From Anatilimnocola aggregata (GTDB lineage: Bacteria; Planctomycetota; Planctomycetia; Pirellulales; Pirellulaceae), in assembly GCF_007747655.1 (NCBI RefSeq), contig NZ_CP036274.1:2046001-2110000 (forward strand): a stretch of DNA of 64,000 nt, in the 5' to 3' direction. The notes beneath the pieces are model-generated. The model was not told the origin of the DNA and searched no databases. It was given only the letters and a program-made list of their open reading frames with translations. The position numbers were made by a program, and so were the translations under genes. Every line of letters begins with the position of its first letter. The first letter of the stretch is position 1. Positions 1,987 to 24,863 of the stretch are shown one piece after another.

Positions 1987-4455
1987 CTACCTTGAGGCGC
2001 TTTCCAAGAACACCCTGGATCGCACTAAAGCCTTCAGCAAATTCCGCATCGGGTATTCCTTGTCGGCTTGTTCTCTTACGATGGCCCGAATCGTCACCAG
2101 ATCGAGCACGTCGGCCGGGCGGCCCGTGCCGTACAGCGTGAGTTTCTTAAGCAGGCCCCGCACGATGTCTTCAAGATAATTCCTGGCGAGCAACTCCTTG
2201 CATTCCTGAAAACTGGCGAACTTCTCGCCCCGCGGCAGATGGCCCGCCGTGTCCACCGGCCGCGCCTTGCCTTCGCCGCGCCACTCGATTTTGCCGTCCA
2301 GTTCCGCTCGGTGATATCGCTCGTGTTCGACGTTCCGCCAGCGGCCGCTCAGGTCGAAGTTCTGAAACGCGAAGCCCAGCGGGTCCATCTTCTTGTGACA
2401 CACCGAACATTTGCTGTCCGCTTGATGCTGGACGAGTAGCTCTCGGAAGCTCTTGCCTTGATTCGCCTTGTCGAACGGCAGCAACTCGGGCACTTCCAGC
2501 GGTGGTGCGGGAGGCGGATCGTCGAGGATATGAGTCAGCGCCCACGAGCCGCGATAGATCATCCAGTTGTCCCCCATCCAACACAGCATCGACTGAATGC
2601 CTGCGTGCCCCAGCACTCCGCCACCGCGCGGGTCGTCCTCGCGGGGATGCAGCATGACCTTCCGCAGCTTGCCGCCGTCGATCGCCGGATAGCCATAGTG
2701 AACGGCCAGGATGTCGTTCATCATCGTCCAGTCGCTCGTGATCAACTCCCGCGCATGCCGATTGTCGTCAAACAGCCGGGCGACGTACTGAATCGATTCT
2801 TCTTTCATTGACTCCTTGAGGTGCCGGCCAAACCTGAAATCCTGCTTCTTCAAACTCGACATTGTCAGTGTGACTGGTTGATTCAAATTCAGCCACTGCG
2901 TCACGAAGGGACGAAAGAAAGCGTCGCTCCGCGGATCGGCCAACAGACGGTCAACTTGAGCGTCCAGTACTTTCGGATCGCGAAGCTTCCCGGCGGCGGC
3001 CAGTTCACGCAGCTCGCGATCCGGCGGCGAGCCGACGAGCATGAAGCTCAAGCGCGACGCGATGGCGTGCTGAGCCACGACTGAATTCGCGTCGGCCGGC
3101 GAAGCCAGGTAGCGGAAAGGCCCGCCCATCAACACCGATTGAAAGGCGGCTCGCAGAGCTTCGTCGAACGAGACCTCTTTCCCACGAAGCTGCCTGTAGA
3201 GGGCAAAGAATTTCGCCTGTTCGTCGACGGACGCCGGCCGTCGCCACGCATGTTCCAGCCAAAGCGCGATCAGCCGCCGAGCACTCGCCTCGTCGTCCTT
3301 AGTCTCCTCGCGGGACGACAGGGGCCAGACCGCGCGGTGATCGTAATCGACTTCGATCGATTCGATGACGATCGACGGCACCGGCTGCACGTCGGGCGTT
3401 CGGAGAACCTTGCGGTCAAAGGCCGGTCGATAGACGCCGATGCCGCCGGGGAGGTTGTCCTCGGGCTTCGTGCGGTCATCGTTCTCGAAACCTTCGACCG
3501 CGTAGGGAACTTCGACAAACGATTGCAGCATCACCTTGAGCGCGCTGCCTTCGATCAAACAGTCTTCCATCCGCACGGCGTAGACTAGCGTCTGCGGCTC
3601 CTCGCCGATCGGCCGGTAGTCGATGTAGCTGCCGCCGACTTTTACCCACAACATCGGCAGCGGCAGGCCGGCCATGGGCCGCCGAGCGAAAACACGCATC
3701 GTCATCTTCAACGCCGCTCGCTTATCCGCCGGCGCGGGGAACGCAAGAAACGAATTGCCGGAATCGCCCGTCCATTGCGTCGGCAAGTAAAGTCCGACTC
3801 CCTTCTTGCAAAACAACCCCTTCGATCGCGTGAAGATGCCCGAGTCTTTGAAACTCGTTTCGACGAATTTAAAGTAATCGGTGAACTCGTGCTCGCGGAA
3901 GTCGACGCTGATTCTGCGGTCGCGTGCCGGCTCCAAAAAGCGAATGCTGTCGACGGCCCGGCGCGTCACTTCCAGCCACTGGTTCACGGAATCCGCCGCA
4001 TCTTGAAGCGCCGTCGCGCCGGTGTCGAAGCCGTCCACCTTCGCGTCTTCCGGCAACCCCGCCGCAAAGTCGATCGGCAAGCCGACCAAATCCTGTAGTG
4101 CCGTGGACAATTCACGACGATTCAACCGCCGTTGCGATCCGGCCATCACGGCCTTGTGACGAGCCGCTTGGTCGATGATCCACGACTGAATACGTTGTCT
4201 ATCTTCAGCCGTCGGTTGCGTTTCGCCCTTGGGCGGCATCTCGCCGCCGATCAATACTTCATGAACCGAGGTCCACAGGTGTTCGGTGGAACTGTCAAAC
4301 CCGGCGAGCCGATCGAAGCGAACCTGCGCCTGCTGCTCTTCCGCGCCGTGGCACCGCTGGCAATACTTGGCCAGCAGCGGCCGAACGGTATCGAGGTCGT
4401 CGGCCAACAACGCACTCGGCGCGACGAGTAAGATCAACACAAATCCACGGAGCAT
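1987..4455 (-). CDS. DUF1592/DUF1588/DUF1585 planctomycete cytochrome-type protein
   Basis: An 822-residue exported protein with the full planctomycete DUF1592 architecture. A signal peptide (about 1-18) is followed by a PSCyt1-like heme-c site (YCQRCHGAEE, Cys32/Cys35/His36), a DUF1587-like block beginning at RRLNRRELSTALQDLVGL (about 110-155), DUF1595 around residue 390 (IALWLEHAWRRPASVDEQAKF), DUF1592 (about 410-540), DUF1588 with a second CxxCH (CSVCHKKMDPLGF, near 690) and DUF1585 at the C-terminus (LARNYLEDIVRGLLKKLTLY). Two CxxCH sites suggest a multiheme electron carrier, though heme binding has not been shown for this family as far as I know. It sits 16 bp after the DUF1549/1553 gene and before its DUF1552 partner. 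Confidence 0.93.
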   Translation of the reverse strand: MLRGFVLILLVAPSALLADDLDTVRPLLAKYCQRCHGAEEQQAQVRFDRLAGFDSSTEHLWTSVHEVLIGGEMPPKGETQPTAEDRQRIQSWIIDQAARHKAVMAGSQRRLNRRELSTALQDLVGLPIDFAAGLPEDAKVDGFDTGATALQDAADSVNQWLEVTRRAVDSIRFLEPARDRRISVDFREHEFTDYFKFVETSFKDSGIFTRSKGLFCKKGVGLYLPTQWTGDSGNSFLAFPAPADKRAALKMTMRVFARRPMAGLPLPMLWVKVGGSYIDYRPIGEEPQTLVYAVRMEDCLIEGSALKVMLQSFVEVPYAVEGFENDDRTKPEDNLPGGIGVYRPAFDRKVLRTPDVQPVPSIVIESIEVDYDHRAVWPLSSREETKDDEASARRLIALWLEHAWRRPASVDEQAKFFALYRQLRGKEVSFDEALRAAFQSVLMGGPFRYLASPADANSVVAQHAIASRLSFMLVGSPPDRELRELAAAGKLRDPKVLDAQVDRLLADPRSDAFFRPFVTQWLNLNQPVTLTMSSLKKQDFRFGRHLKESMKEESIQYVARLFDDNRHARELITSDWTMMNDILAVHYGYPAIDGGKLRKVMLHPREDDPRGGGVLGHAGIQSMLCWMGDNWMIYRGSWALTHILDDPPPAPPLEVPELLPFDKANQGKSFRELLVQHQADSKCSVCHKKMDPLGFAFQNFDLSGRWRNVEHERYHRAELDGKIEWRGEGKARPVDTAGHLPRGEKFASFQECKELLARNYLEDIVRGLLKKLTLYGTGRPADVLDLVTIRAIVREQADKEYPMRNLLKALVRSRVFLESASR

Positions 4456-9977: not shown

Positions 9978-12215
9978 TTAGGAACTAGACTTCTTCAATT
10001 CGGCTTTGGGCGCCGCGTTCGGTTCCGGGGAAGCAGGGACACGGTGCAAGAACGATTCACTGGTCAGTAGCGCGGTGATGAGCGCTTTCATACTGCCGTC
10101 GCTCTCCTGATATGCCTGGTGCGCCGCTTGCAGACTGGCCGCATCGCCGGGCGATTCGTTCCGCCCCAGCCAATAGCGGAACGCATGCCGCACGAATACC
10201 TGTTCGACGCGCTCGGACGACGCCAGCCGCTTCATGAGCTCGACCGGACCGTTCACCGGCCCTTCCAGGCTCGGGTCGCCGACATGAGCCACCAGTCCGC
10301 TGACGTTCAGCGGCGCACCCCGCATCATTTGGCCGAGACTCTTTCCCTTCTTGTCGACGTTCTTCTCCGTCGCATCGGGATCGAGCACCTGCTCCGCAGT
10401 ACGGAAGCGGCCGAAGTGGTCGTACTGTTCGAACGGGTACGCCAGATCATTCATCAACTGGTGACACTTCCAGCAGTATTCCTGCTTCGTCACCGCCATC
10501 CGCTCGCGGAGCGTCTTTTCGGGAGCGATGGGGAGTTGCGCATCGACCGTGATCGGGATGTCGGGCACGACGTTCCCCAACAATCGTTCACGAATCCACT
10601 TGCCGCGGTGGATCGCGTGGTTGTCGAACGTCGTCGAATTCGCTACCAGCCACGACGGCTGCGTCAGAATCCCGGCCCGCTGATCGGCCGGCAGGTCCAC
10701 CGGCTGCTCGACGGGAAAATCGGCCAGCCCGTACGACTCGTAAATCAATTTCTGTTGCGGTTTGAACACTTTCCCTGCGTTCTTCACAGGATCCTTCTTG
10801 AGGTCTGCTTCGAACTTGGCCCGTGCTTCGGCAACCTTCTTTTTCGCCTCAGCCGCCGACTTGTATGCCACGAAGGACTTGTTCGTGGTGAGTAGTTCGC
10901 GGAGCACGTCGCGGTCCTGATCGAGCACGTACTGCACCAGCCGGTCGGTGTCCTCGACGAGCACCTGCGGCTCGTGCCCCGGATGATCGACGGCCGTCCC
11001 GCCGCCATTCGCTTCTTTGAAGACGTCGGTCGCCTTGTCGTAGCCAAAATACTCGCGGAAGAACCGCAGGATGCGGGGTTTGTCGGTCTTGGCGTCGTCG
11101 AGCAACCGCTGCACCTGCTGGGCGACTCCCTCATCGGTATCGAGCCCGCCCGTCGCCGCGGCCGCCAGAAGCTGCGAATCCGGCCCCTTGTCGGTCAGCG
11201 CGTAGGCGATCGCATACGCGATTTCGCGCGGAGCCAGCCGCAAGCGGCCCTTTTCATCGGGCTGGCCGCTGCCCACCTCCATCCGAAACACGGCCTCGGG
11301 CAGCATCAGCACCGTCGCCAGGGCATAGCGAGCGCCGACCACATGGCCCGCCTCATACATGTTCTTCTTGAGCAGCGCCACGAACTTCTCCCGCTCGCGG
11401 TCGGTCGGCGGGCGTTTGAGAATCTGTTTGAATTGGAAAGTGATCGCCGTTTCGAGCTGCGCGTCGGTCGGCGCGACCTGCGGATCGAACAGCGGCTGGA
11501 GTTCCCTGGCTCCATTCCATTTGACGATCTTGCCATTCTCGACCGTGTGGATCGTCTGCCCCTCAACGATCAACAGCGCGTTCTGAAATAGCGTGGCGGT
11601 GACCGGTTCGTCGATCGTCGGATCGCCCATATCCTTGAACGTCGTGCCGCCCACGGGCGAAAACGGCTGATTGGCGCCGGGCCGCTTGGCGGCGTCCTTG
11701 AGGAACGCACCATAGATTTCCGGGCTGACGCGACGGACGCGGCTCGCGCCGTCGAACGGCGGGATATTCTTCGGATCGAACAGCACAGAGTTCGGGATGA
11801 TGTTGCCGTTTTCGTACGCGGCGCGGCGGGTGAAGTTCCGGTTGGCGCGTTTCGACTCGGCGTGAGCCCAGCCGATCGTCGCTGCCAGGCCCACCGCATC
11901 CGGCCGCGGCTTCTCCTTCGGCGGCATCTCGCCCTTCGTGAGTTTCTCCACGATCGTCGCCCACCGCGCCCCGCTGGTGCTGGCCTTCATATCGGGGTCG
12001 AGCGTCGTCAGATCCAGTTCGCCCTCGGGATCTTTCGCACCGTGGCACTTGACGCAGTGCTTGACGAGGAACGGCTGGACCGACCGTTCGAACTCCGCCC
12101 GGCTCTCGTCGGCGTTGGTGAATTTCAGCTCGGCCGCGGATGCCAAGCGGAAGGGCAGTGCGAGCAGAAGCAGGCAGCCGGAAATTCGAAGCACGAAATC
12201 CGAGGCGGGTTGCAT
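9978..12215 (-). CDS. DUF1592-group cytochrome-type protein
   Basis: A 745-residue exported protein. Heme-c site CVKCHGAKDPEGELDL follows the leader, and a second CxxCH (YCWKCHQLMNDLAYPFEQYD) lies near the DUF1588/1585 boundary. Blocks typical of DUF1592 (LRLAPREIAYAIAYALTDKG; ILRFFREYFGYDKATDVFKE) lie between. The N-terminal block RRVSPEIYGAFLKDAA and the phrase LIVEGQT are shared with the LRR fusion at 39820, so these two form a subfamily distinct from the 822-residue paralogue. I place the start at ATG 12215 (MQPASDFVLRISG); ATG 12254 adds 13 residues. The leader is encoded by repeat-like DNA (see the 12181 repeat). Confidence 0.92.
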   Translation of the reverse strand: MQPASDFVLRISGCLLLLALPFRLASAAELKFTNADESRAEFERSVQPFLVKHCVKCHGAKDPEGELDLTTLDPDMKASTSGARWATIVEKLTKGEMPPKEKPRPDAVGLAATIGWAHAESKRANRNFTRRAAYENGNIIPNSVLFDPKNIPPFDGASRVRRVSPEIYGAFLKDAAKRPGANQPFSPVGGTTFKDMGDPTIDEPVTATLFQNALLIVEGQTIHTVENGKIVKWNGARELQPLFDPQVAPTDAQLETAITFQFKQILKRPPTDREREKFVALLKKNMYEAGHVVGARYALATVLMLPEAVFRMEVGSGQPDEKGRLRLAPREIAYAIAYALTDKGPDSQLLAAAATGGLDTDEGVAQQVQRLLDDAKTDKPRILRFFREYFGYDKATDVFKEANGGGTAVDHPGHEPQVLVEDTDRLVQYVLDQDRDVLRELLTTNKSFVAYKSAAEAKKKVAEARAKFEADLKKDPVKNAGKVFKPQQKLIYESYGLADFPVEQPVDLPADQRAGILTQPSWLVANSTTFDNHAIHRGKWIRERLLGNVVPDIPITVDAQLPIAPEKTLRERMAVTKQEYCWKCHQLMNDLAYPFEQYDHFGRFRTAEQVLDPDATEKNVDKKGKSLGQMMRGAPLNVSGLVAHVGDPSLEGPVNGPVELMKRLASSERVEQVFVRHAFRYWLGRNESPGDAASLQAAHQAYQESDGSMKALITALLTSESFLHRVPASPEPNAAPKAELKKSSS
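12181..12205. repeat. Degenerate GAAATYCGAAGCACGAAATCC-type dispersed repeat in leader
   Basis: A short stretch of GAAATTCGAAGCACGAAATC character. The same GAAGCACGAAAT/TCC words occur at 16468-16485 and, as part of a longer tract, at 20925-20950. In all three cases the repeat is read on the minus strand as part of the signal peptide (DFVLRIS, NFVLRIL, TFVFRIS). Confidence 0.6.
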
Positions 12216-12372
12216 CAAGGATGTCCTCGCGGCAGGAAGGATGGTATCTGGCATGGCGGGCCTTGATCCGAAGTTGGCCTATTCGACGTGGCTGCGGCTG
12301 GAAGTCCCAGCCACGTGCGGGTGAGCATCAGGCGATCTCAATCTCCAACTGTTATTGACGCAGGGGCCGAGC

Positions 12373-12394
12373 AACTTAGCAGTATTTTCGCGAA
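12373..12394 (-). promoter_or_regulatory. Candidate ECF-type promoter element, copy A
   Basis: On the minus strand TTCG, a 10-base spacer, then GCTAAGTT. The same pair with an 11-base spacer precedes the ECF sigma gene (23276-23298) and its relic (25053-25075). It lies about 160 bp upstream of the DUF1592 start at 12215. Promoter function is inferred from recurrence and placement only. Confidence 0.45.
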
Positions 12395-12440
12395 CACCTT
12401 TACTTTTACGTCCGTTGGCGCGGCAAATTGCCCTGGCAAA

Positions 12441-12504
12441 TAGCGGCGCGAGCCGCCCGGTATCGCGTGGCGTAAGCCACGGGGCGGCTTGCGCCGCGCC
12501 GCTA
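12441..12504. repeat. REP-like compound hairpin
   Basis: Three nested complementary words: TAGCGGCGCGAGCCGCCC at the left, a central CGTGGCGTAAGCCACG palindrome (12466-12481), and GGGCGGCTTGCGCCGCGCCG at the right. A decayed piece of the same element (CAGCTTGCGCCGCGCTGCTA) lies at 23339-23358. Both copies sit just upstream of a candidate promoter element. Confidence 0.7.
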
Positions 12505-12607
12505 CTTCTTGGTTGCGGCTTCTCCGCGTTAATCATTTGGAGTTTCAGGGTGGTCTGGTCAAGTCGGAGGGACGGCATTCACAATCTCCCGAATCTCGTA
12601 CGCAAGA

Positions 12608-14026
12608 TCACGCCAGGATGTCGCGAACCACTTCGCCATCGACGTCGGTCAACGTGTAGTCTCGGCCGCCGTAGCGGTAGGTCAGCTTCTGGTGGTCCAG
12701 GCCGAGCAGGTGCAGCACCGTGGCGTGCAGCTCGTGGACCTTCACTTTATTCTCCGCTGCGAAATAGCCCAGTTCGTCGGTCGCCCCGTAACGCAGGCCG
12801 CCTTTCACGCCGCCGCCGGCCAGCCAGTAGGTGAAACCGGCCCCGTTGTGGTCGCGGCCGTGATTGTTGTTCGGCTTTTGCTCGAGCACCGGCGTGCGGC
12901 CGAATTCACCGCCCCACACGAGCAGCGTGTCGTTCCACAGACCTCGCTGCTTCAAGTCGGTAATCAGACCGGCGATCGGTTGATCGATGCCGCGGCACGC
13001 ATTGGGGATGCCCGTAGCGATGCCGGCGTGATGATCCCAACCCCCTTGCGAGATCTCGATGAACCGTACTCCGGCCTCGGCCATCCGCCGCGCCAACAGG
13101 CACTGCACTGCGAAAGCGTTGCCGCTGCCATCGGATTTCAAGCCGTACAGTTCAAGGGTCTCCTTAGTCTCACTTCCTACTTCCAACAGCTCCGGCACGG
13201 CCGATTGCATGCGATAGGCCCGCTCGAACGACTCAATGACCGCGTCGATTTGGCTGTCGGACTGCTTCTGTTGCTGGTAGCGGACGTTGAGCCGCTGGAC
13301 GAAGTCCAACTGCCGGCGCTGCTCGCTGGTGGAGAGAATCGGGTTGTTGACGTTGCGGATCGGCGGCGACTTCTGGACGCCGAGCTTCGACACGCCGCGC
13401 ATGATCGTTGCGTGATGAACGGCGGGCAGGAAGGCGTTCGAGTAGCAGCCGCTCGACTCGTTGCGGTCGCGAGGATTGACCGAAACGTAGGCCGGCAGAT
13501 TCTCCGATTCGCTCCCTAGACCGTAGGTGATCCACGAACCGATCGACGGCCGCGTGAAACGAAACTCGCCAGTGTGCATCATCACGCAGCCCGCCTCGTG
13601 CAGGCCCGTGTCGTGGAACATGCCGTTGATCAAGCACAGGTCGTCGGCATGCCGGGCCAGATGCGGCAGCACTTCGGAAATCCAGAGTCCGCTTTCCCCG
13701 TGCTGAGCGAACTTGAATGGCGGCTTCATCAACTTCGGCTCTTTGCCGACCGTGCCGGCCTTCGGCTGCTCGTAGGGGAGAGCCTTGCCGTCCGCCTTAT
13801 AGAGTTCGGGCTTGTAGTCGAATGTATCGACGTGCGACGGTCCGCCTTCCATGAACATAAAGATCACCCGCTTCACCTTGGCGGGAAAGTGCGGCTGGCG
13901 CGCCGCGAGCGGACTGACGTAGCCGTCAGCGGCCTGGGCTTGCCGGCACAGAGCCGCCAGCGCGAGAGAACCGAAACCGGCGGCGCTGGTGCGCAGCGCG
14001 TCGCGGCGTGTCATGGAGGGGTTCAT
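12608..14026 (-). CDS. DUF1501 family exported protein
   Basis: A 472-residue DUF1501 protein with leader MTRRDALRTSAAGFGSLALA (an alternative ATG at 14014 begins exactly there). Family motifs: FMFMEGGPSHVDTFDYKPE, VWGGEFGRTPVLEQ, GRDHN and YWLAGGGVKGG, ending in LDHQKLTYRYGGRDY and a VDGEVVRDIL tail. It closely parallels the DUF1501 protein at 16650-18098 (same tail), and each follows a PSCyt1-DUF1549-DUF1553 gene, giving a duplicated two-gene unit. The spacing to the upstream stop is 37 bp. Confidence 0.95.
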   Translation of the reverse strand: MNPSMTRRDALRTSAAGFGSLALAALCRQAQAADGYVSPLAARQPHFPAKVKRVIFMFMEGGPSHVDTFDYKPELYKADGKALPYEQPKAGTVGKEPKLMKPPFKFAQHGESGLWISEVLPHLARHADDLCLINGMFHDTGLHEAGCVMMHTGEFRFTRPSIGSWITYGLGSESENLPAYVSVNPRDRNESSGCYSNAFLPAVHHATIMRGVSKLGVQKSPPIRNVNNPILSTSEQRRQLDFVQRLNVRYQQQKQSDSQIDAVIESFERAYRMQSAVPELLEVGSETKETLELYGLKSDGSGNAFAVQCLLARRMAEAGVRFIEISQGGWDHHAGIATGIPNACRGIDQPIAGLITDLKQRGLWNDTLLVWGGEFGRTPVLEQKPNNNHGRDHNGAGFTYWLAGGGVKGGLRYGATDELGYFAAENKVKVHELHATVLHLLGLDHQKLTYRYGGRDYTLTDVDGEVVRDILA

Positions 14027-14063
14027 GGTGTATTTCCTGATTATCTTCTTCCCGTTTGACGTA

Positions 14064-16574
14064 CTACCTCAAGAATCGAAACTCGGCCGAACAAAACAGT
14101 GCCTGACAGAACTCCGCCCAAACCTGCCGTTGAGCGAGTCGTCCATCTCCCGCCGCCGAGGTCTGGCCCAAAAATACCAGCCCTTCCTGTTGTTCGTCGG
14201 CCGTGGCTGAGCGGCCAAAGAACAGCGAGTATGCGAGCTGCACGCGCTCTTCGTCCGTCGCTGCCGAGTTCAACAGCCGCAGCGCCGCCCGGTTGGCATG
14301 CTCGAGCACCAGCGGGCTGTTCATCAGAAACAGCGATTGCGTCGGCACCGAGGGCGTTTCGCGCCGACCGATCACCAAGTCCGACGGCGGAAAGTTGAAC
14401 GCCGCCAACAGGTCGATCCTCGCGCCCCGATGCACGGGCAGAAAGACGGTGCGAAAATCGAGCCGGTCGAGCGTCCGCGCGTCGGTCATGCGGAAAGCGT
14501 GCAGGTCATTTTCGAAGCGCGTGGGCGGTCGGCGGATCAGACTGCCGCTGACGCACAGAATGCTGTCGCGCAGGGCCTCGCCGTCGAGTCGACGCGGACT
14601 GTGCCGCCACAGCAGCGCGTTGTCCGAATCCACTTGCCGATAGCGATCGCTCGGCGGGTCGGCCGCCGTCAATTGATATGCCCGGCTGAGCACGATCCGC
14701 CGCACGGTTTGCTTGAGCGAATAACCGTCGGCCACAAAGCGGCCGGCCAACCACTCCAGCAATTCGGGATGGGTCGGCCGTTCGCCCATCGTGCCGAAAT
14801 CGTCCACGGTCCGCACCAGGCCGCGGCCAAACAAGTGGTGCCACACACGATTGACCATCACGCGGGCAGCAAGCGGATGGTGCTCCAGCACTTCGGCCAG
14901 TTGCAGCCGGCCGCTCGACTTGGCCGGAATCTCCGGCGAGTCACCCGTGTACAGCACCTGCATGATCCCGCGCGGCACAACATCACCGAGATTGTCTTCG
15001 TTGCCGCGGATGCGAACTTGCAGGTCCTGCTTGTTGCCGGGCGCCAGACGATCGGTCGCCGACATCGTGTCGACGATCTCGGCGGGGGGCGATGCCAGCA
15101 GCTTCTCCAGTTCCGCTTCGGCCTTGGCCAGATCGGCCAACAGCGGCTCCAGCTTGGCCCGCTGGCCGGCATTCGGATAACGCTGCAGCGAGTCCTGCCA
15201 CGATTCGTCGGGCAGCTTCATCAAGCCGGCTTCGGCCAGCGCGTCTTCGAGTTTCGTCGTCACGCTGTGCATCGTGGCGAATGCCGCGCCTTCGATGGCC
15301 AGCCGCTTTTTCCCCTCGGGGCTCCGCCCGCGCGTGGCTGGCACGATCGGCGCGTCGTCGTTGACGCCCGTGTTGTTGAAGATCCCCGCCATCGCGTAGA
15401 AGTCGTGGGTCGTCACCGGATCAAACTTGTGATCGTGGCAGCGGGCACAGCCGATGGCGATCCCCAGCAGCGAACGACCGACCGTGTCGAGCTGCTCCGC
15501 GAGCACATCCATCCGCACGTTGCCGTCGGGTTTGCTGCCCAATGCCAGGAACGCCGTGGCCATCAGTTGCTCGTCGCGCTGCGCGTCGTTGTCGTAGGGC
15601 AACAGGTCGCCGGCAATCTGTTCGCGCAGGAATTGGTCGTACGGCTTGTCGGCGTTGAACGAGGCGATGACGTAATCGCGATAACGCCAAGCGGCGAACC
15701 ATTGATTGTTGTTCTTGGGCGCGCCGTTCGATTCGCCGTACCGGGCCACGTCGAGCCAGTGCCGGCCCCATCGTTCGCCGAAATGCGGCGACTTGAGCAA
15801 CTCATCCACCAGCGCCGCGACGGCCCCCTCGCGGTCGCGCTGGGCGGCGGCGAGGAACCGGTCGATCTCCTCCAATGTCGGCGGCAGCCCGAGCAAGTCG
15901 AAATACAACCGCCGCACCAGGTCGCGCGGCTCGGCGACGGCCAGCGGCGCCAGCGAGTTCTCCTCCAGCTTGCTCAGCACAAACCGATCGATCTCGCCGC
16001 GCGGCCACTTCGCATCGCGCACCTGCGGGACGGCGACCTCGGCCAGCGGGCGGAACGACCAGAACTTGCGCCCGGCTTCGATGTCGATCTCGTACTTCTT
16101 CACAACCGACGTACCGTCTCGCGGATCGGCCGCTCCCATCTCGATCCACTTCACGAAGTCGGCGATCACCGCCTCGGGCAATTTGCCCTTGGGGGGCATC
16201 TCAAACGACTCGTGCCGGATCGCCGAAATCAGCACGCTCTCCTTGACCTTGCCGGGAACAACCGCCGGCCCGCTCTCGCCCCCTTTGCGGATCCCGTCCC
16301 GCGTGTCGAGCAGCAAGTCTCCCTTGAGCTTCTTCGCCCGGGCGGCATCGGCCGAATGGCAGGCGTAGCAATGCTCGACCAGCACCGGGCGAATCTTCGC
16401 CTCGAAGAAGTCGGTTCCCTCGTCGGCCGCGGCAAATGAAGACGGCAAGATCACCAGGGCCAAGATGCGAAGCACGAAATTCAAAGTCAGAAACAACTTC
16501 GATGTTCGAACGTCCATCGGCCGAATGGCGCTCGGGCCGCGTTGCTTCGTTTGGGGCATGGGGATTTTCGCCAT
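14064..16574 (-). CDS. PSCyt1-DUF1549-DUF1553 planctomycete cytochrome-type protein
   Basis: An 836-residue exported protein. The leader ends near residue 50, followed by the PSCyt1 heme site HCYACHSADA, LLLDTRDGIRKGGESGPAVV and FEMPPKGKLPEAVI. DUF1549 follows at about 220-420 (LVRRLYFDLLGLPPTLEEID; HFGERWGRHWLDVARYGES), with a second heme-like site CARCHDHKFDP, then DUF1553 to the end (HPLAARVMVNRVWHHLFGRG; HSPRRLDGEALRDSIL). The start ATG 16574 is supported by alignment with the paralogue at 18115, which begins similarly (MAKIPMPQTKQ against MSEIPITKTKT). Likely an envelope electron-transfer protein, inferred. Confidence 0.94.
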   Translation of the reverse strand: MAKIPMPQTKQRGPSAIRPMDVRTSKLFLTLNFVLRILALVILPSSFAAADEGTDFFEAKIRPVLVEHCYACHSADAARAKKLKGDLLLDTRDGIRKGGESGPAVVPGKVKESVLISAIRHESFEMPPKGKLPEAVIADFVKWIEMGAADPRDGTSVVKKYEIDIEAGRKFWSFRPLAEVAVPQVRDAKWPRGEIDRFVLSKLEENSLAPLAVAEPRDLVRRLYFDLLGLPPTLEEIDRFLAAAQRDREGAVAALVDELLKSPHFGERWGRHWLDVARYGESNGAPKNNNQWFAAWRYRDYVIASFNADKPYDQFLREQIAGDLLPYDNDAQRDEQLMATAFLALGSKPDGNVRMDVLAEQLDTVGRSLLGIAIGCARCHDHKFDPVTTHDFYAMAGIFNNTGVNDDAPIVPATRGRSPEGKKRLAIEGAAFATMHSVTTKLEDALAEAGLMKLPDESWQDSLQRYPNAGQRAKLEPLLADLAKAEAELEKLLASPPAEIVDTMSATDRLAPGNKQDLQVRIRGNEDNLGDVVPRGIMQVLYTGDSPEIPAKSSGRLQLAEVLEHHPLAARVMVNRVWHHLFGRGLVRTVDDFGTMGERPTHPELLEWLAGRFVADGYSLKQTVRRIVLSRAYQLTAADPPSDRYRQVDSDNALLWRHSPRRLDGEALRDSILCVSGSLIRRPPTRFENDLHAFRMTDARTLDRLDFRTVFLPVHRGARIDLLAAFNFPPSDLVIGRRETPSVPTQSLFLMNSPLVLEHANRAALRLLNSAATDEERVQLAYSLFFGRSATADEQQEGLVFLGQTSAAGDGRLAQRQVWAEFCQALFCSAEFRFLR

Positions 16575-16620
16575 TGGAATCTATTTTGGATGGATTTCGA
16601 TCTGCGGGTTACGGATTTAA
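16461..16620. repeat. Dispersed repeat relic spanning a gene start and leader
   Basis: Words of the TTCGAACGTCC, GAAGCACGAAAT and TTGGAATCTATTTTGGATGG type run from inside the leader of the DUF1549 gene to beyond its start codon. A corresponding, better preserved tract lies at 20800-20950 upstream of the paralogue, including the shared GGGATTT..GCCATT/GACATTTGAAT start region. Confidence 0.6.
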
Positions 16621-16649
16621 TGCCGGCTGTTCATCGCCTGCGCTGCGGA

Positions 16650-18098
16650 TTAAACGAGGATGTCGCGGATCACCTCGCCATGCACGTCGGTCAGGCGATA
16701 GTCGCGGCCGCTGTAGCGGTAGGTGAGCTTTTCGTGGTCGAGACCCATGAGGTGCAACATGGTGGCATGCAGATCGTGAACGTGGACTCGATTCTCCACC
16801 GCCTTGAAGCCGAACTCATCGGTGGCACCGTAGGCGAGCCCGCCACGTACCCCGCCTCCCGCCAGCCACATCGAGAAACCGTAGTGGTTGTGGTCGCGGC
16901 CATTACTTCCTTGCGTCGTCGGGGTGCGGCCGAATTCGCCGCCCCAGACAACCAGCGTGTCCTCGAGCAATCCACGCTGTTTGAGATCCGTGAGCAACCC
17001 CGCGATGGGTTGATCGACGTTCCCCGCAAGGCTTTGATGGGCCGAGGAGTTGTTGCCGTGCGTGTCCCAGGGCTGCTGATTGCCGTAGTAGATCTGGATG
17101 ACGCGAACACCTCGCTCCGCAAGCCGACGTGCGAGCAGGCAGTTGCGGGCAAAGGTCGTTCGGCGAAGGTCGTTCTTGGCATTGGGGGGCGCGCCGGCGT
17201 TGAGCCCCGTCAAACCGTAGAGATCGAGAATCTGCTGGGATTCGCCGCGGCTGTCGAACGCCTCGGCCGCCGAAATCTGCATGCGATACGCCAATTCCAT
17301 CGAATCCATGCGTGCCCCAAAGGCGTTCTCGGCGCCCACTCGCTCGCGATGTAGGTCGTTGAGCCGTTGCGTGAAGTCGAGTTCCCGACGCTGCCCTTGC
17401 AGGGATAGGCTTGCGTTGTGCAGATTCGCGAGCGCATTTTCCGGTCGATAATCGCCGGGAAGCACGACCTGGCAACCCTGATAAATTCCCGGCAGAAATC
17501 GGCTGCTCCAGTTGGACGGCCCGTTGACCGGCTGACCTTCGCCCAAAACGATGAAGCCGGGAAGGTTCTCGTTTTCCGTCCCCAGACCATACAGCAGCCA
17601 GGAACCATACGCAGGCCGAATCGGCTGTACGTTACCGGTGAACATCAACCAATTGGATGCCTCGTGAACCGGCGTGTTCGTGTGCATCGAGCGGATTACA
17701 CACAGGTCGTCGGCATGGCGGGCGACGTGCGGAAAGAGTTCGCTGATTTCCAGGCCCGACTGTCCATGCCGGGTGAACCGAAACGGCGACGGCATCAGTC
17801 CGCCCGTCCCGTTCTGCGTGGTGAGCCCGATGGTGCTTTCGGGACGCTGGCCGGCGTATTTCTGGAGAGCCGGCTTGGGGTCGAACGTGTCGACCTGCGA
17901 TGGGCCGCCGTTCATCCAGAGATGGATGATGCGTTTGGCTCGCGCGGGGAAGTGCGGCGGCCGAGCCGCCAACGGGGTCACGCTGGCCTCCGAGTGGCCG
18001 GCCAGTACCGACGCAAGGCCGATCATGCCGACTCCATAGGTCGTCTGGGCCAACAAATCGCGGCGAGAAAGGCGGAAACGATTTTCAAACGTCGACAT
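16650..18098 (-). CDS. DUF1501 family exported protein
   Basis: A 482-residue DUF1501 protein from ATG 18098 (MSTFENRFRLSRRDLLAQ); an in-frame start at 18125 would overlap the upstream gene and adds only nine poorly hydrophobic residues. The twin-arginine-like leader is RLSRRDLLAQTTYGVGMIGL. Motifs: HLWMNGGPSQVDTFDPKPAL, VWGGEFGRTPTTQG, GRDHNHYGF, AGGGVRGGLAYGATDEFG, and a tail VHGEVIRDILV nearly identical to the paralogue ending at 12608. It starts 16 bp after the DUF1549/1553 stop. Confidence 0.95.
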   Translation of the reverse strand: MSTFENRFRLSRRDLLAQTTYGVGMIGLASVLAGHSEASVTPLAARPPHFPARAKRIIHLWMNGGPSQVDTFDPKPALQKYAGQRPESTIGLTTQNGTGGLMPSPFRFTRHGQSGLEISELFPHVARHADDLCVIRSMHTNTPVHEASNWLMFTGNVQPIRPAYGSWLLYGLGTENENLPGFIVLGEGQPVNGPSNWSSRFLPGIYQGCQVVLPGDYRPENALANLHNASLSLQGQRRELDFTQRLNDLHRERVGAENAFGARMDSMELAYRMQISAAEAFDSRGESQQILDLYGLTGLNAGAPPNAKNDLRRTTFARNCLLARRLAERGVRVIQIYYGNQQPWDTHGNNSSAHQSLAGNVDQPIAGLLTDLKQRGLLEDTLVVWGGEFGRTPTTQGSNGRDHNHYGFSMWLAGGGVRGGLAYGATDEFGFKAVENRVHVHDLHATMLHLMGLDHEKLTYRYSGRDYRLTDVHGEVIRDILV

Positions 18099-18114
18099 TA
18101 TCCACTCCCCAGTG

Positions 18115-20910
18115 TCATGGCACAAATGTGAACTCGTTCGTCGTCAGAAGCGAATGACAGAGACGTTCCCACGGCCCGAGTTTTTCCTCCGAGGCAGCGG
18201 CTTCGCGCAAGAATTCTTGGGCTACAACCGTCTCTCGCTCGGTCGTCAGCCGCCCGAACGCCAGTTGCCACGCCAAAAGCAAGCGACGCTCCTCCGATTG
18301 TTCCGACGCGTTGAGACGTTCCGCGAACGATCGGGCCATCGCCAAAACGAACGGGCTATTGATGGCAAACAACTGCTGTTGCGGGATCGTCGTTACCGTC
18401 CGTTGATCGCTTGTCACGTTCGGCTCGGGGAAATCGAAAAGCGTCAATGTCGGATTCGGCTTGAAGCGACTGATGAAGCCATAGATCGTCCGCCGCCGAT
18501 TCTCGGGATCCTCGGGATGCAACTGCACTTTCCCTTGCGGATCGCGGTAAGGCTGTCCACCAATTTCGGGATCGAGCTTTCCAGCGACCGCCAGCATGGA
18601 GTCGCGCCAGGCTTCGAAATCGAGCCGCCGCGGCGACACGCGCCAGAGGTAATGGTTGTCGGCATCCTTGGCGAGATTCTTCGCCTCGGGGACGCTGCTG
18701 AGCCCATACGTGGCCGACAGCATGATCTCGCGATGGAGCCATTTGGTGGACCAGCCGTTTTCCATGAAGCGAACCGCGAGCGTGTCGAGCAATTCCGGGT
18801 GCGTGGGCCGATCCCCCAGTTGACCGAAGTTGCTGGTCGTGCCCACGATGCCCCGGCCAAAATGATAATGCCAGACGCGATTGACGAAGACGCGGGCCGT
18901 CAGCGGGTTGTTCCGATCCACGATGGCGTCGGCCAATTCGAGTCGCGACAACGATGTCGCGGAGGCGCTTGAATCGCGCCGCAAGATGGTGAGGAATCCA
19001 GGAGTCGCCACCGGGCCGAGCACGTCGGCATTTCCGCGAACATTGATCTGCAACGGTTGCCCTCCCCCGATCACCGCTGGCGCCCTCGCGACTGCGGCGG
19101 GGGCTGACGCCTGAAGCCGCTGCAACTTCGCGTCCCACTCGTCGTACTGGAGGCGGTCGGCGGCCGAGAGATATGCGATCGCATCCTTGCCGCGAAGCTG
19201 AAACGCGGCCCCGTCGTTCGACAAATGCGCCTTAATGAACGATTCGGCCGCGGGGGGCAGCTTCGACTTGGCCCCCTCGGATTCGGACAAGGCACGCAGC
19301 GCGTCGTCAGCTTTAGATTTCGCTTTCGCCGAAGCGTCGCGCAGTTCCTGAGGTGGTTCCACGGGGTCGTTCATCGCGGCCGTCTCGCTTGCTTTCAGCG
19401 CGGCGGCGTGCCACGCTTCGAGCAACGGTATGCCCTTTGGATTCGCCAGCGCCTTGGTCCAGCGAACGAGGAAGAAGGAATTGAGGTTCGACTCGCGGGC
19501 AACGGCCTCGGCGTCGGCGGGCTGTTTGCGCTCGGCACGCACGTGCAACTTCCAGGCCGCTAGTAAGTATTCATCCAGCCGGGCAAGTTCCTGTCGGCCT
19601 AGTCGACGACCTTCGTCGGCGGTGAGCTTGTCCATTTTTGCCTGTAATTCGGCGGCCTCCTTTTTCCGTTGCGCCTCAGCCGCCACCTGGGCCGGAGATG
19701 CCAGAGCAATTTCAGCGCTCAGATTGGCTCCGTTGTAAGCCGCCGCCAGCGAGTAGTAGTCGACGGTCGGAATCGGATCGAACTTGTGGTCGTGACAGCG
19801 GGCACACGACACCGTTAGCCCGAGCAGGGCCCGCGTGACCGTGTCGACGCGATCGTCGAGTTCGTCGGCCACCTTCTTTTTGACCATGCCAACAGCGTTG
19901 CCGCTGAAGCGTTGGCCGAGACCTTGAAAACCGAGCCCGCCGAGCCGTTCCGTAAAATCCTTGGCAGGCTCCCGAATCAGATTGCCTGCCAGTTGAAGGC
20001 GAACGAACTGATCGTACGGCATATCACGGTTGAACGCTTGGACGACCCAATCGCGATACCGAAATGCCGTCGGCGCAAGCACGGGCCCCACGGTTCCGCC
20101 GAGATCGTCCGTGTAGCGAGCGAGATCGAGCCAATAGCGTCCCCAGCGTTCTCCATAATGGGGCGATTCGAGCAAGCGATCTACCACCTTGGCGAGGACT
20201 TCGGGAGATTCGTCCTTTTCGAACGCGTCAACTTCTTCGGGCGTGGGCGGCAAACCGATCAGGTCAAAGGTTGCCCGGCGAATCCACTCATGCTTCGTGG
20301 CGGCCCGAACCGGCGTCAGTCCGCGTTTCTCCAGTTCCGCCAGAACGAAGTGATCCATCTCCTTCCTTGGCCACAGTGCGTTCTTGACCCGTGGAGGAGC
20401 GTGGGCCTTGGGCTTCTGAAACGCCCAGAATTCGCGTGCCTTTTGCCAGTCGATCTTCTCCGTTTGAACCACCGACGTGCCGTCACGCGGATCGGGAGCA
20501 CCCAGTTCGATCCACTTCACAAAGTCGGCGATCACCGCCTCGGGCAATTTGCCCTTGGGCGGCATCTTGAACGACTCGTGCCGGATCGCGGCAATCAGCG
20601 CGCTCTCGTCGACCTTGTCGGGAACAACCGCCGGTCCGCTCTCGCCACCCTTGCGGATCCCCTCACGCGTGTCGAGAAGCAGTCCCCCCTTGAGCTTTTT
20701 CTGTAGAGCCGCATCGGCTGAATGGCACGCGTAGCAATGCTCGACCAGCACGGGGCGAATCTTCGCCTCGAAGAAGTCGGTTCCCTCGTCGGTGCTGGCC
20801 ACCGATGCGAATGTCACAATCCAAAATCCGAACATCGAAATCCGAAATACGAATGTGCGAAACGCACTCGCACCGGGTGTCTTCGTTTTGGTTATTGGGA
20901 TTTCCGACAT
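18115..20910 (-). CDS. PSCyt1-DUF1549-DUF1553 planctomycete cytochrome-type protein (long form)
   Basis: A 931-residue protein from ATG 20910. This start was chosen because it aligns with the paralogue at 16574; a GTG at 20952 overlapping the FecR gene stop is an alternative. Domains in order: leader FRTFVFRISMFGFWIVTFAS, PSCyt1 with HCYACHSADA, DUF1549 (WIRRATFDLIGLPPTPEEVD; HYGERWGRYWLDLARYTDD), CARCHDHKFDPIPTVDYYSL, a roughly 200-residue charged segment rich in Ala, Lys and Glu (about 420-640), then DUF1553 (NPLTARVFVNRVWHYHFGRG). The charged insertion is the main difference from the 836-residue paralogue. It is the first structural gene after the sigma/FecR pair. Confidence 0.93.
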   Translation of the reverse strand: MSEIPITKTKTPGASAFRTFVFRISMFGFWIVTFASVASTDEGTDFFEAKIRPVLVEHCYACHSADAALQKKLKGGLLLDTREGIRKGGESGPAVVPDKVDESALIAAIRHESFKMPPKGKLPEAVIADFVKWIELGAPDPRDGTSVVQTEKIDWQKAREFWAFQKPKAHAPPRVKNALWPRKEMDHFVLAELEKRGLTPVRAATKHEWIRRATFDLIGLPPTPEEVDAFEKDESPEVLAKVVDRLLESPHYGERWGRYWLDLARYTDDLGGTVGPVLAPTAFRYRDWVVQAFNRDMPYDQFVRLQLAGNLIREPAKDFTERLGGLGFQGLGQRFSGNAVGMVKKKVADELDDRVDTVTRALLGLTVSCARCHDHKFDPIPTVDYYSLAAAYNGANLSAEIALASPAQVAAEAQRKKEAAELQAKMDKLTADEGRRLGRQELARLDEYLLAAWKLHVRAERKQPADAEAVARESNLNSFFLVRWTKALANPKGIPLLEAWHAAALKASETAAMNDPVEPPQELRDASAKAKSKADDALRALSESEGAKSKLPPAAESFIKAHLSNDGAAFQLRGKDAIAYLSAADRLQYDEWDAKLQRLQASAPAAVARAPAVIGGGQPLQINVRGNADVLGPVATPGFLTILRRDSSASATSLSRLELADAIVDRNNPLTARVFVNRVWHYHFGRGIVGTTSNFGQLGDRPTHPELLDTLAVRFMENGWSTKWLHREIMLSATYGLSSVPEAKNLAKDADNHYLWRVSPRRLDFEAWRDSMLAVAGKLDPEIGGQPYRDPQGKVQLHPEDPENRRRTIYGFISRFKPNPTLTLFDFPEPNVTSDQRTVTTIPQQQLFAINSPFVLAMARSFAERLNASEQSEERRLLLAWQLAFGRLTTERETVVAQEFLREAAASEEKLGPWERLCHSLLTTNEFTFVP

Positions 20911-20950
20911 TTGAATTTGTTTCGGATTTGGTGCTTCGGATTTCGGATTC
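20800..20950. repeat. AT-richer dispersed repeat (CGGATTTCGGATT type) at gene start
   Basis: About 150 bp of alternating ATCCGAAATCCGAA-like words on one strand (TTCGGATTTCGG on the other), clearly lower in GC than the flanking genes. It covers the start codon, the leader and the region back to the stop of the FecR-WD40 gene. Read in the coding direction it yields NPKSEAPNPKQIQMSEIP and FRTFVFRISMFGF. Confidence 0.7.
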
Positions 20951-23513: not shown

Positions 23514-24863
23514 CTACACCAGTTCGCGAATCTTCTCCCGGTTGTCGAGTACATAGAGGGGACGGCCATTGTGGTTCAAATACGTTTGCGCCGGGGCGAT
23601 GCCCAATACGTTGTCGTAAAGCGTCGCCAACAAGTTCGAGGGGACGTAGGGAGTGCCGACCGAACGCTCCCCATTTTGCGTCGTCTGTCCGATCACCTGG
23701 CCCATCTTCAATCCACCGCCGGAAACCAGTCCGAACCCCACCTCATTCCAGTGGTCGCGACCGCCGGCGCCGTTGATTCGTGGCGTGCGGCCCATCTCAC
23801 CCCAGACCACCACGGCCACCTCCTGATCCATTCCACGTTGATGCAGATCGCTGATCAGGGCGAAAAGGCTTTGGTCGAGTTCCGGCAACAGACTCCGCAT
23901 TTTTGTGAAATTGCCCCCGTGCGTGTCCCATGGGCCCGCCAGGTACCAAGTCTTCGACTCCTTGTTAGCGGTGAGGGTGACCGCTTGCACGCCTGCTTCC
24001 ACCAAGCGGCGTGCCTGGAGAAACTGCGTCCCTCCCGTGCCGTACATGGAGCGGACGTGCTCGGGTTCCTGGCTAATGTCGAAGGCGTCCCGCGCTTTGG
24101 GCGACGTAATAATATCCAATGCGCGCTCCTGGAAAGAGTCCATCGCCGCCAGGCTGCCATGCGCGTCATTCGCGTGCTGTAACACGTCCAACGAACGCAA
24201 AAGTCCCTTGCGCTCGGTGGTGCGATCGAGCGTCATACCTCCCATGGGGCCAAGGGAATTCAGTTGAGCGTCCGGAACGAAAGGACGATGGGCCATGCCC
24301 AGATAGTCAACCGAACTGCCGCCGTTGTAGATACCGTCAAAGGCAACGTACGGGGGCATGCCACGGACGGCGTCGCCGCGAATCTTGCTGACCACGGAGC
24401 CAAACGTCGGACGGTGGTTCGGATTTGAATCGGTGTTGGGACCGATATCGCTGGTCGGGTAGCCGGTGTATACCAGTGGCGCGTTGTGGCCAACCAAATA
24501 TTCACGGAAACTGATGTTGCGGATTACTGCCATCTTGTCCGCAACCGTGGCCAACTTCGGCATCAACTCGCAGATCTCCAGCCCCGGCACGTTCGTTCGA
24601 ATGGGATTAAACTCACCCCGAAATTCCATGGGGGCGTCCGGCTTCATGTCGAACATATCCAAATGAGGCGGTCCGCCGTGCAGATAGACCATAATTACGG
24701 ACTTCTGCGACTGACTCCGCTGCGACCCCTGCGCCCGCAATTGCAACAGATTGGCGAGCGTCAGCCCGCCGAGGCCGAGCGCCCCGACCTGCAAAAAACC
24801 TCGCCGGCCCAAGCGACGGCTCGAAGTGCTGGATTCGGAAACGGTGAACATGATCTTCTCCAT
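23514..24863 (-). CDS. DUF1501 family exported protein (isolated)
   Basis: A 449-residue DUF1501 protein. ATG 24863 or ATG 24851 (MFTVSESSTSSRRLG) could start it; the twin-arginine-type leader is RRLGRRGFLQVGALGLGGLT. Motifs: IMVYLHGGPPHLDMFDMKPD, VVWGEMGRTPRINGAGGRDH and LVSGGGLKMGQVIG. It resembles the DUF1501 proteins at 49378 and 53454 (MKPDAP, INKDAGRDH types) more than those in the left block. There is no DUF1549/1553 gene next to it, which is unusual, and a sigma-gene relic lies directly upstream. Confidence 0.94.
   Translation of the reverse strand: MEKIMFTVSESSTSSRRLGRRGFLQVGALGLGGLTLANLLQLRAQGSQRSQSQKSVIMVYLHGGPPHLDMFDMKPDAPMEFRGEFNPIRTNVPGLEICELMPKLATVADKMAVIRNISFREYLVGHNAPLVYTGYPTSDIGPNTDSNPNHRPTFGSVVSKIRGDAVRGMPPYVAFDGIYNGGSSVDYLGMAHRPFVPDAQLNSLGPMGGMTLDRTTERKGLLRSLDVLQHANDAHGSLAAMDSFQERALDIITSPKARDAFDISQEPEHVRSMYGTGGTQFLQARRLVEAGVQAVTLTANKESKTWYLAGPWDTHGGNFTKMRSLLPELDQSLFALISDLHQRGMDQEVAVVVWGEMGRTPRINGAGGRDHWNEVGFGLVSGGGLKMGQVIGQTTQNGERSVGTPYVPSNLLATLYDNVLGIAPAQTYLNHNGRPLYVLDNREKIRELV

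Follow-up and report, generated by a model that had tools for sequence, protein, structure and literature searches.

Dispersed repeats with a 7-bp unit are known from cyanobacteria, whose heptanucleotide STRR repeats form plain tandem arrays. Small palindromic repeats of the REP families GTAG and CGTC, 20–40 bp in length, have been reported also in Planctomycetes (PMC3733652). The Rickettsia palindromic elements (RPEs), of approximately 150 bp, are described as lying in frame within the coding sequences of unrelated genes (PMC10969869), and RU-2, a MITE-like enterobacterial repeat located in YPO1552 of Yersinia, represents a predicted case of a small repeat within a signal peptide (Delihas 2007, PMC2759123). 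As these two sources describe them, both a small repeat in a signal peptide and palindromic elements inside genes already have predicted precedents.

The window (the whole 64,000-nucleotide stretch of DNA analysed, situated inside one 9.01-Mb contig of the host genome G000) contains a minus-strand cluster with three exported-type genes, g1, g2 and g3 (Table 1). The leaders of these ORFs carry the stretches SDFVLRIS, LNFVLRIL and TFVFRIS, respectively, ahead of a hydrophobic core and a PSCyt1 domain (PF07635, "planctomycete cytochrome C"). We consider it probable, from comparisons of sequence, that a MITE-like palindromic element sits in such PSCyt-type signal peptides with the start codon inside it, and that the leader was spread by recombination. 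Among the papers listed in open-access literature searches, none dealt with this element or these leaders. By description only, the element resembles the STRR repeats in being dispersed with a 7-bp unit, and differs in its inverted arms and centre. Set likewise beside the descriptions of the other families, it is small and palindromic like the REPs but exceeds their length, and it shares with the RPEs a palindromic structure of about 150 bp lying in frame within genes, although RPEs are described in metabolic genes and this element lies in leaders. In contrast to RU-2 as described, it was found in ten leaders of two genomes and in several protein architectures, with element-free paralogues and a heptad structure open in all frames.

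Table 1. Features of the window and of the element copies within it
Feature	Positions	Strand	Description
g1	9978..12254	(-)	exported-type PSCyt1 + DUF1592/DUF1588/DUF1585; ATG at 12254 or 12215
g1 leader piece	12175..12215	(-)	distal right arm of the element; encodes SDFVLRIS
DUF1501 partner gene	12608..14026	(-)	downstream of g2
g2	14064..16574	(-)	exported-type PSCyt1 + DUF1549 + DUF1553
g2 element copy	16460..16604	(-)	degenerate left arm, ATG (MAKIPMPQTK), right arm encoding LNFVLRIL
DUF1501 partner gene	16650..18092	(-)	downstream of g3
g3	18115..20910	(-)	exported-type PSCyt1 + DUF1549 + DUF1553
g3 element copy	20813..20950	(-)	left arm (NPKSE reading) upstream of ATG; centre MSEIPITKTKTPGASAFR; right arm TFVFRISMFGFWI
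Near-identity block vs G424	12400..20350	(.)	98–100% in most 200-bp bins, lowest 95.5%

The sequence-only reading had derived the leaders of g1, g2 and g3 from one repeat family, and this was borne out by the presence of the quoted peptides, by a 21-mer of the repeat and by a leader model. With up to three mismatches, the 21-mer has five matches in the 9.01-Mb genome, four of them in the three leaders (g3 twice), and its reversed control none; the fifth (8319566) lies within a long ORF, CTP synthase-like by eye, and has no model match. The model R1, trained on seven leaders from two genomes, detects its training members g2 and g3 with E values of 1e-32 and 2e-30. R1 does not match g1, which retains the distal right arm only; the upstream half of the g1 leader is unlike that of b, its 82% identical orthologue in G424 (a genome of another genus in the same family), and adjoins a rearrangement junction at ~12201–12294. 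The accompanying claim that the repeat is AT-richer than its surroundings holds for g2 (50% GC, local mean 63%) and g3 (44%, local 61%) and fails for the 31-bp piece of g1, whose 52% is not unusual.

In total, the element was recognized in ten leaders: g1, g2, g3 and x of G000, and a to e and y of G424. They belong to genes of the PSCyt1+DUF1592 type and of the PSCyt1+DUF1549/1553 type, and to y, a DUF1549/1553 gene with PF07583/PF07587 alone and no PSCyt1 match. PF07635 scores above the Pfam cut-off in g1, g2, g3, a and x; the PSCyt1 search matches a, c, d and e; c, d and e are assigned by that search only, and b as the orthologue of g1. Seven full-length copies (g2, g3, a to e) align across 161 columns, over which g2 and d are identical, whereas in x the left arm, which would precede the ATG, is missing and the coding part is retained (model positions 45–152). 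The leaders are very likely repeat-derived.

The element is an inverted repeat of about 145 bp whose arms are runs of the 7-bp unit CGAANNN. It is short, has inverted terminal arms and contains no transposase gene, which are among the features by which a MITE is recognized. Palindromic copies often give model matches on both strands at one place, and across 100 loci of element-rich genomes 59 of the 121 arm clusters show a plus arm first and a minus arm behind it. The length is ~60 bp in G121 and 112–187 bp for most long matches elsewhere; in the G121 loci L190–L214, several ~60-bp heptad elements are nested in another inverted repeat (TAGCCCGAAGCGCAAGCGAGGGAAATGCGGCCGCAAG...). Repeated in tandem, AATCCGA encodes NPKSEIR in each of the three frames and SDFGFRI on the opposite strand; whatever the frame or orientation, a gene running out of the element at either end is read from the hydrophobic strand. 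Stop codons occur in 3 of the 64 possible CGAANNN tandems on each strand; the common unit CGAATGA has one on the hydrophilic strand. Stop-freeness was rejected as a special trait of the unit, since one strand is free of stops in 69% of random tandem 7-mers, compared with 61/64 CGAANNN units. The earlier suggestion that copies be tested for a bias in frame and orientation was also dropped, because an inverted repeat with a tandem 7-bp unit yields one cyclic peptide in three frames. An Rfam search of eight loci gave no match, and a consensus fold calculated for the leaders (19 pairs, -3.7 kcal/mol) was set aside as evidence.

The description of the repeat as dispersed does not apply to its own genome. 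R1 yields only four matches in G000, corresponding to g2, g3 (both strands) and x, a further PSCyt leader located 37 kb from the window; genome-wide dispersion was rejected because these matches are PSCyt leaders only. The 11-mer CGAAATCCGAA occurs there 11 times, against 4 for its reversed control. No R1 match was found in G406, of the same genus. Among 60 relatives, at least 18 have matches at E up to 0.05 under strict filters. Outside the training set, the R1 matches number 49 in G304 (best 1e-18) and 41 in G409 (best 3e-15), the places being fewer since palindromic copies often match on both strands; the copies in element-rich relatives are mostly intergenic, among the contexts examined. 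In G424, the R1 matches listed (13 of 14) fall at eight places: leaders a to e, leader y, a 5' leader fragment (5874784) and a degenerate copy (15140). The last (L360, ~4140–4284) follows a DUF1501-like gene and lies near an IS66-orf2-like ORF, both identified by eye. G424 also contains a weak match of 17.9 bits (L326, 11528–11650; joined coordinates ~31429–31551) in the leader of a further PSCyt1-type gene, and a partial weak match of 20.3 bits (L325, 1273–1327).

Over the phylum, a 24-mer of the element with up to two mismatches was detected in 17 of 294 genomes, with 42 matches in G088 and none for the controls; in loci L017–L045 (G088, G248, G142 and others) it is dispersed in distant families, in several of them beside a GGCGCGGCCTTTGGCCGC-type repeat. 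A four-heptad pattern was found in 47 of the 117 genomes of the order, an upper figure because the pattern is not fully specific and its reversed control exceeds it in G350 (5 vs 54), G367 (10 vs 25) and G382 (1 vs 12).

The leader of y permits a comparison of genes with and without the element. It is flanked by a WD40-type gene (by eye) and by the DUF1549/1553 part of y itself, and contains a near-perfect palindrome with 146 bp between the inverted termini, situated between the start and the hydrophobic core and scoring 69.8 and 69.1 bits on the two strands with R1, for which y was outside the training set. The order is ATGTGG, the element and then VCCLIFVAASLCQAADP, and the 195-bp frame from ATG to ADP is open throughout. 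The same ATGTGG is the start of the paralogue L399 (MWCKSTLSAVLLLAST...), and in y it is in frame through the element. The homologous gene begins MWCKSTLSAVLLLASTAPVLAADP across the end of the WD40 gene in L399 (G424, 67%) and MRRISKTLGAAIIGG in L400 (G000, 75%). An R1 search of the paralogues L399, L400, L327 and L401, which are 45–75% identical, found no element, so that y presents the arrangement by which RPEs are recognized, an element in frame in a coding gene whose homologues lack it. The simplest reading of these sequences is an insertion of the element into the n-region of y. Compared with the leader of L399, that of y has 132 extra bp, fewer than the 146 bp of the element, and the flanking bases must consequently have changed too.

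Several observations point to recombination as a route by which the leaders multiplied. The near-identity block has its breakpoint inside g3, and within it the mature part of g2 is 99.9% identical to its G424 orthologue d, whereas orthologues flanking the block are far more diverged and mature dS reaches.77 for a/x and.55 for b/g1; for this reason, the ~8 kb block was probably exchanged recently between genera. The 5' ends are mosaic: among g2, g3, c and e, PSCyt1 columns 51–150 are 77–97% identical, the leader columns 57–95% (57–74% except g2/c) and the later columns 31–77% in all pairs but g3/e. Since the PSCyt1 columns are alike and the later parts diverged, 5'-end shuffling accounts for much of the copy number. 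We infer that leader and PSCyt1 domain travelled jointly, even though the leader columns are less alike than the PSCyt1 columns. In G424, an element leader and a homologue of the 3' end of the DUF1501 gene upstream of g2 lie upstream of b. Elsewhere in the window, the DUF1501 gene at 23514–24863 is 92% identical to a G424 gene located between c and d, a difference in position that marks a local rearrangement.

Tests of selection, which span whole leaders and include the non-repeat core, give a weak indication of constraint. For b/g1, pS is.58 and pN.28 (p.008), with a poorly alignable start included; for a/x, 48 codons align without a gap at dS.65 (p.059). The pairs c/d (7 nonsynonymous and 1 synonymous changes, p.68) and g3/e (pN.29, pS.19, p.33) show no sign of constraint.

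The most serious alternative is that fusion occurred only once and that one ancestral element leader was multiplied through tandem duplication and gene conversion, all later copies being inherited. The near-identical 5' ends of g2, c and d and the 3' end of the upstream DUF1501 gene common to b and g2 would fit such a history. We nevertheless regard it as a possibility of clearly lower probability, because the genes upstream of the element leaders vary (DUF1501, DUF1552, FecR/WD40 and WD40, several labels by eye), as do the downstream architectures, and because the near-perfect palindrome of y stands between a WD40-type gene and the usual DUF1549 partner. In our preferred reading, leader and PSCyt1 domain spread together among neighbouring genes of the window's lineage by recombination and crossed between genera, and capture of the element would reflect tolerance rather than advantage.

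In this preferred reading, PSCyt-type signal peptides harbour, between start codon and hydrophobic core, a small palindromic MITE-like element whose arms consist of heptanucleotides. As its arms are nearly stop-free in any frame on either strand and its central ATGs are in frame with the mature protein, a fused gene would stay open and translation would most likely start inside the element; in y, the upstream ATG common to a paralogue would also be usable. The centre encodes M-x-x-I-P-x-x-K-T-K or a variant in most copies, and the seven full-length copies together contain 14 ATGs, 13 of which share the frame of the mature domain. In the nine leaders other than d, with the boundary between repeat and non-repeat drawn by us, only hydropathy and charge considered and cleavage sites placed by eye, the repeat encodes the start codon and a mostly basic n-region of net charge 0 to +7, and contributes 0 to 6 residues to the most hydrophobic decapeptide. 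The repeat thus mainly supplies start and n-region, and much of the hydrophobic core lies outside it, in the resident h-region into which the element-encoded n-region would run. That repeat DNA forms part of the leaders was correctly recognized from the letters alone; that it encodes the hydrophobic signal peptide was largely not.

These leaders are likely translated, although a GTG or TTG behind the repeat might serve as the start. It is improbable that translation starts downstream and that the repeat belongs to the 5' untranslated region, lengthening the frame only through its open arms. Such an arrangement may be common elsewhere, as an ATG follows the element in 27 of the 31 genes of other genomes whose frame runs open into it; however, in all seven full-length leaders the stretch from the element to the mature domain is free of in-frame ATGs, the ATG frame is constant among copies of different length, and the non-repeat remainder contains only 0 or 1 K/R in the nine leaders.

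Those genomes were surveyed at 172 loci (100 + 72), picked non-randomly at pattern or model matches and partly overlapping, with genes counted once by key and L085–L114, mostly overlapping, left out. Gene calls relied on home-made codon scores with score, distance and hydropathy cuts set by us, and genes scoring under 25 were dropped from the outward-gene analysis. Most arm clusters lie outside coding cores (115 of 121 outside and 6 inside, in four genomes; 5 of 64 inside in the second set). One hundred outward genes (69 + 31) have a coding core no more than 300 bp from a copy: the frame is closed in 69, open with an ATG after the element in 27 and open without one in 4. All four of the latter have a hydrophobic N-terminus, vs 19 of the 96 others (p.002), in a small class defined after the first sample. 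The products are one SBP_bac_3 protein that also has PAS domains, one DUF4350 protein in which a lipobox-like stretch was noted by eye, and two N_methyl proteins, one of them with DUF1559; because each of the four genes has GTG or TTG codons either beyond the element or within the core, they are regarded as candidates. A comparison of 10/12 with 4/185, which mixes two ways of finding copies and related loci, is descriptive only. In L146 (G368), the leader of an N_methyl protein is built of several different heptanucleotide tandems.

We consider doubtful, though conceivable, the wider idea that palindromic heptad elements, with arms that when read outward encode a hydrophobic, Arg-containing peptide whatever the frame and orientation, have repeatedly served planctomycetes as a source of export leaders, taken up independently by cytochrome-like proteins, a sensor protein, a lipoprotein and pilin-like proteins.

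That the element actively seeds exported proteins, its right arm being pre-adapted to signal peptides and its repeated capture expanding secreted families, as first suggested for this DNA, is the least probable account: the unit tandem does read SDFGFRI or SFVIRHS in all frames and the four genes without an ATG have export- or pilin-type N-termini, but copies are mostly located outside coding cores, the majority of open genes possess an ATG of their own, 5'-end shuffling and intergeneric transfer account for much of the spread, no exported gene lacking an exported homologue turned up incidentally, element-bearing leaders are few among the 113 and 148 PSCyt1 matches of the two genomes, and R1 has no match at E up to 1 around named g3 homologues (80 loci, 922,502 bases, flanks included, four loci matching only from residue 158 on), while recovering the known copies. 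The R1 search replaced an earlier 0/80 from a heptad-arm pattern that finds only g3, a and e among eight leaders.

The PSCyt leaders would provide a concrete case in which a bacterial repeat has come to form the beginning of exported proteins, and element-free paralogues are available for comparison. N-termini of the NPKSE and FVLRIS types occur in planctomycete annotations. The present results suggest that many of them would be intergenic repeat upstream of the true start and a few would be real leaders, and that the presence or absence of an ATG after the repeat may help to separate the two.
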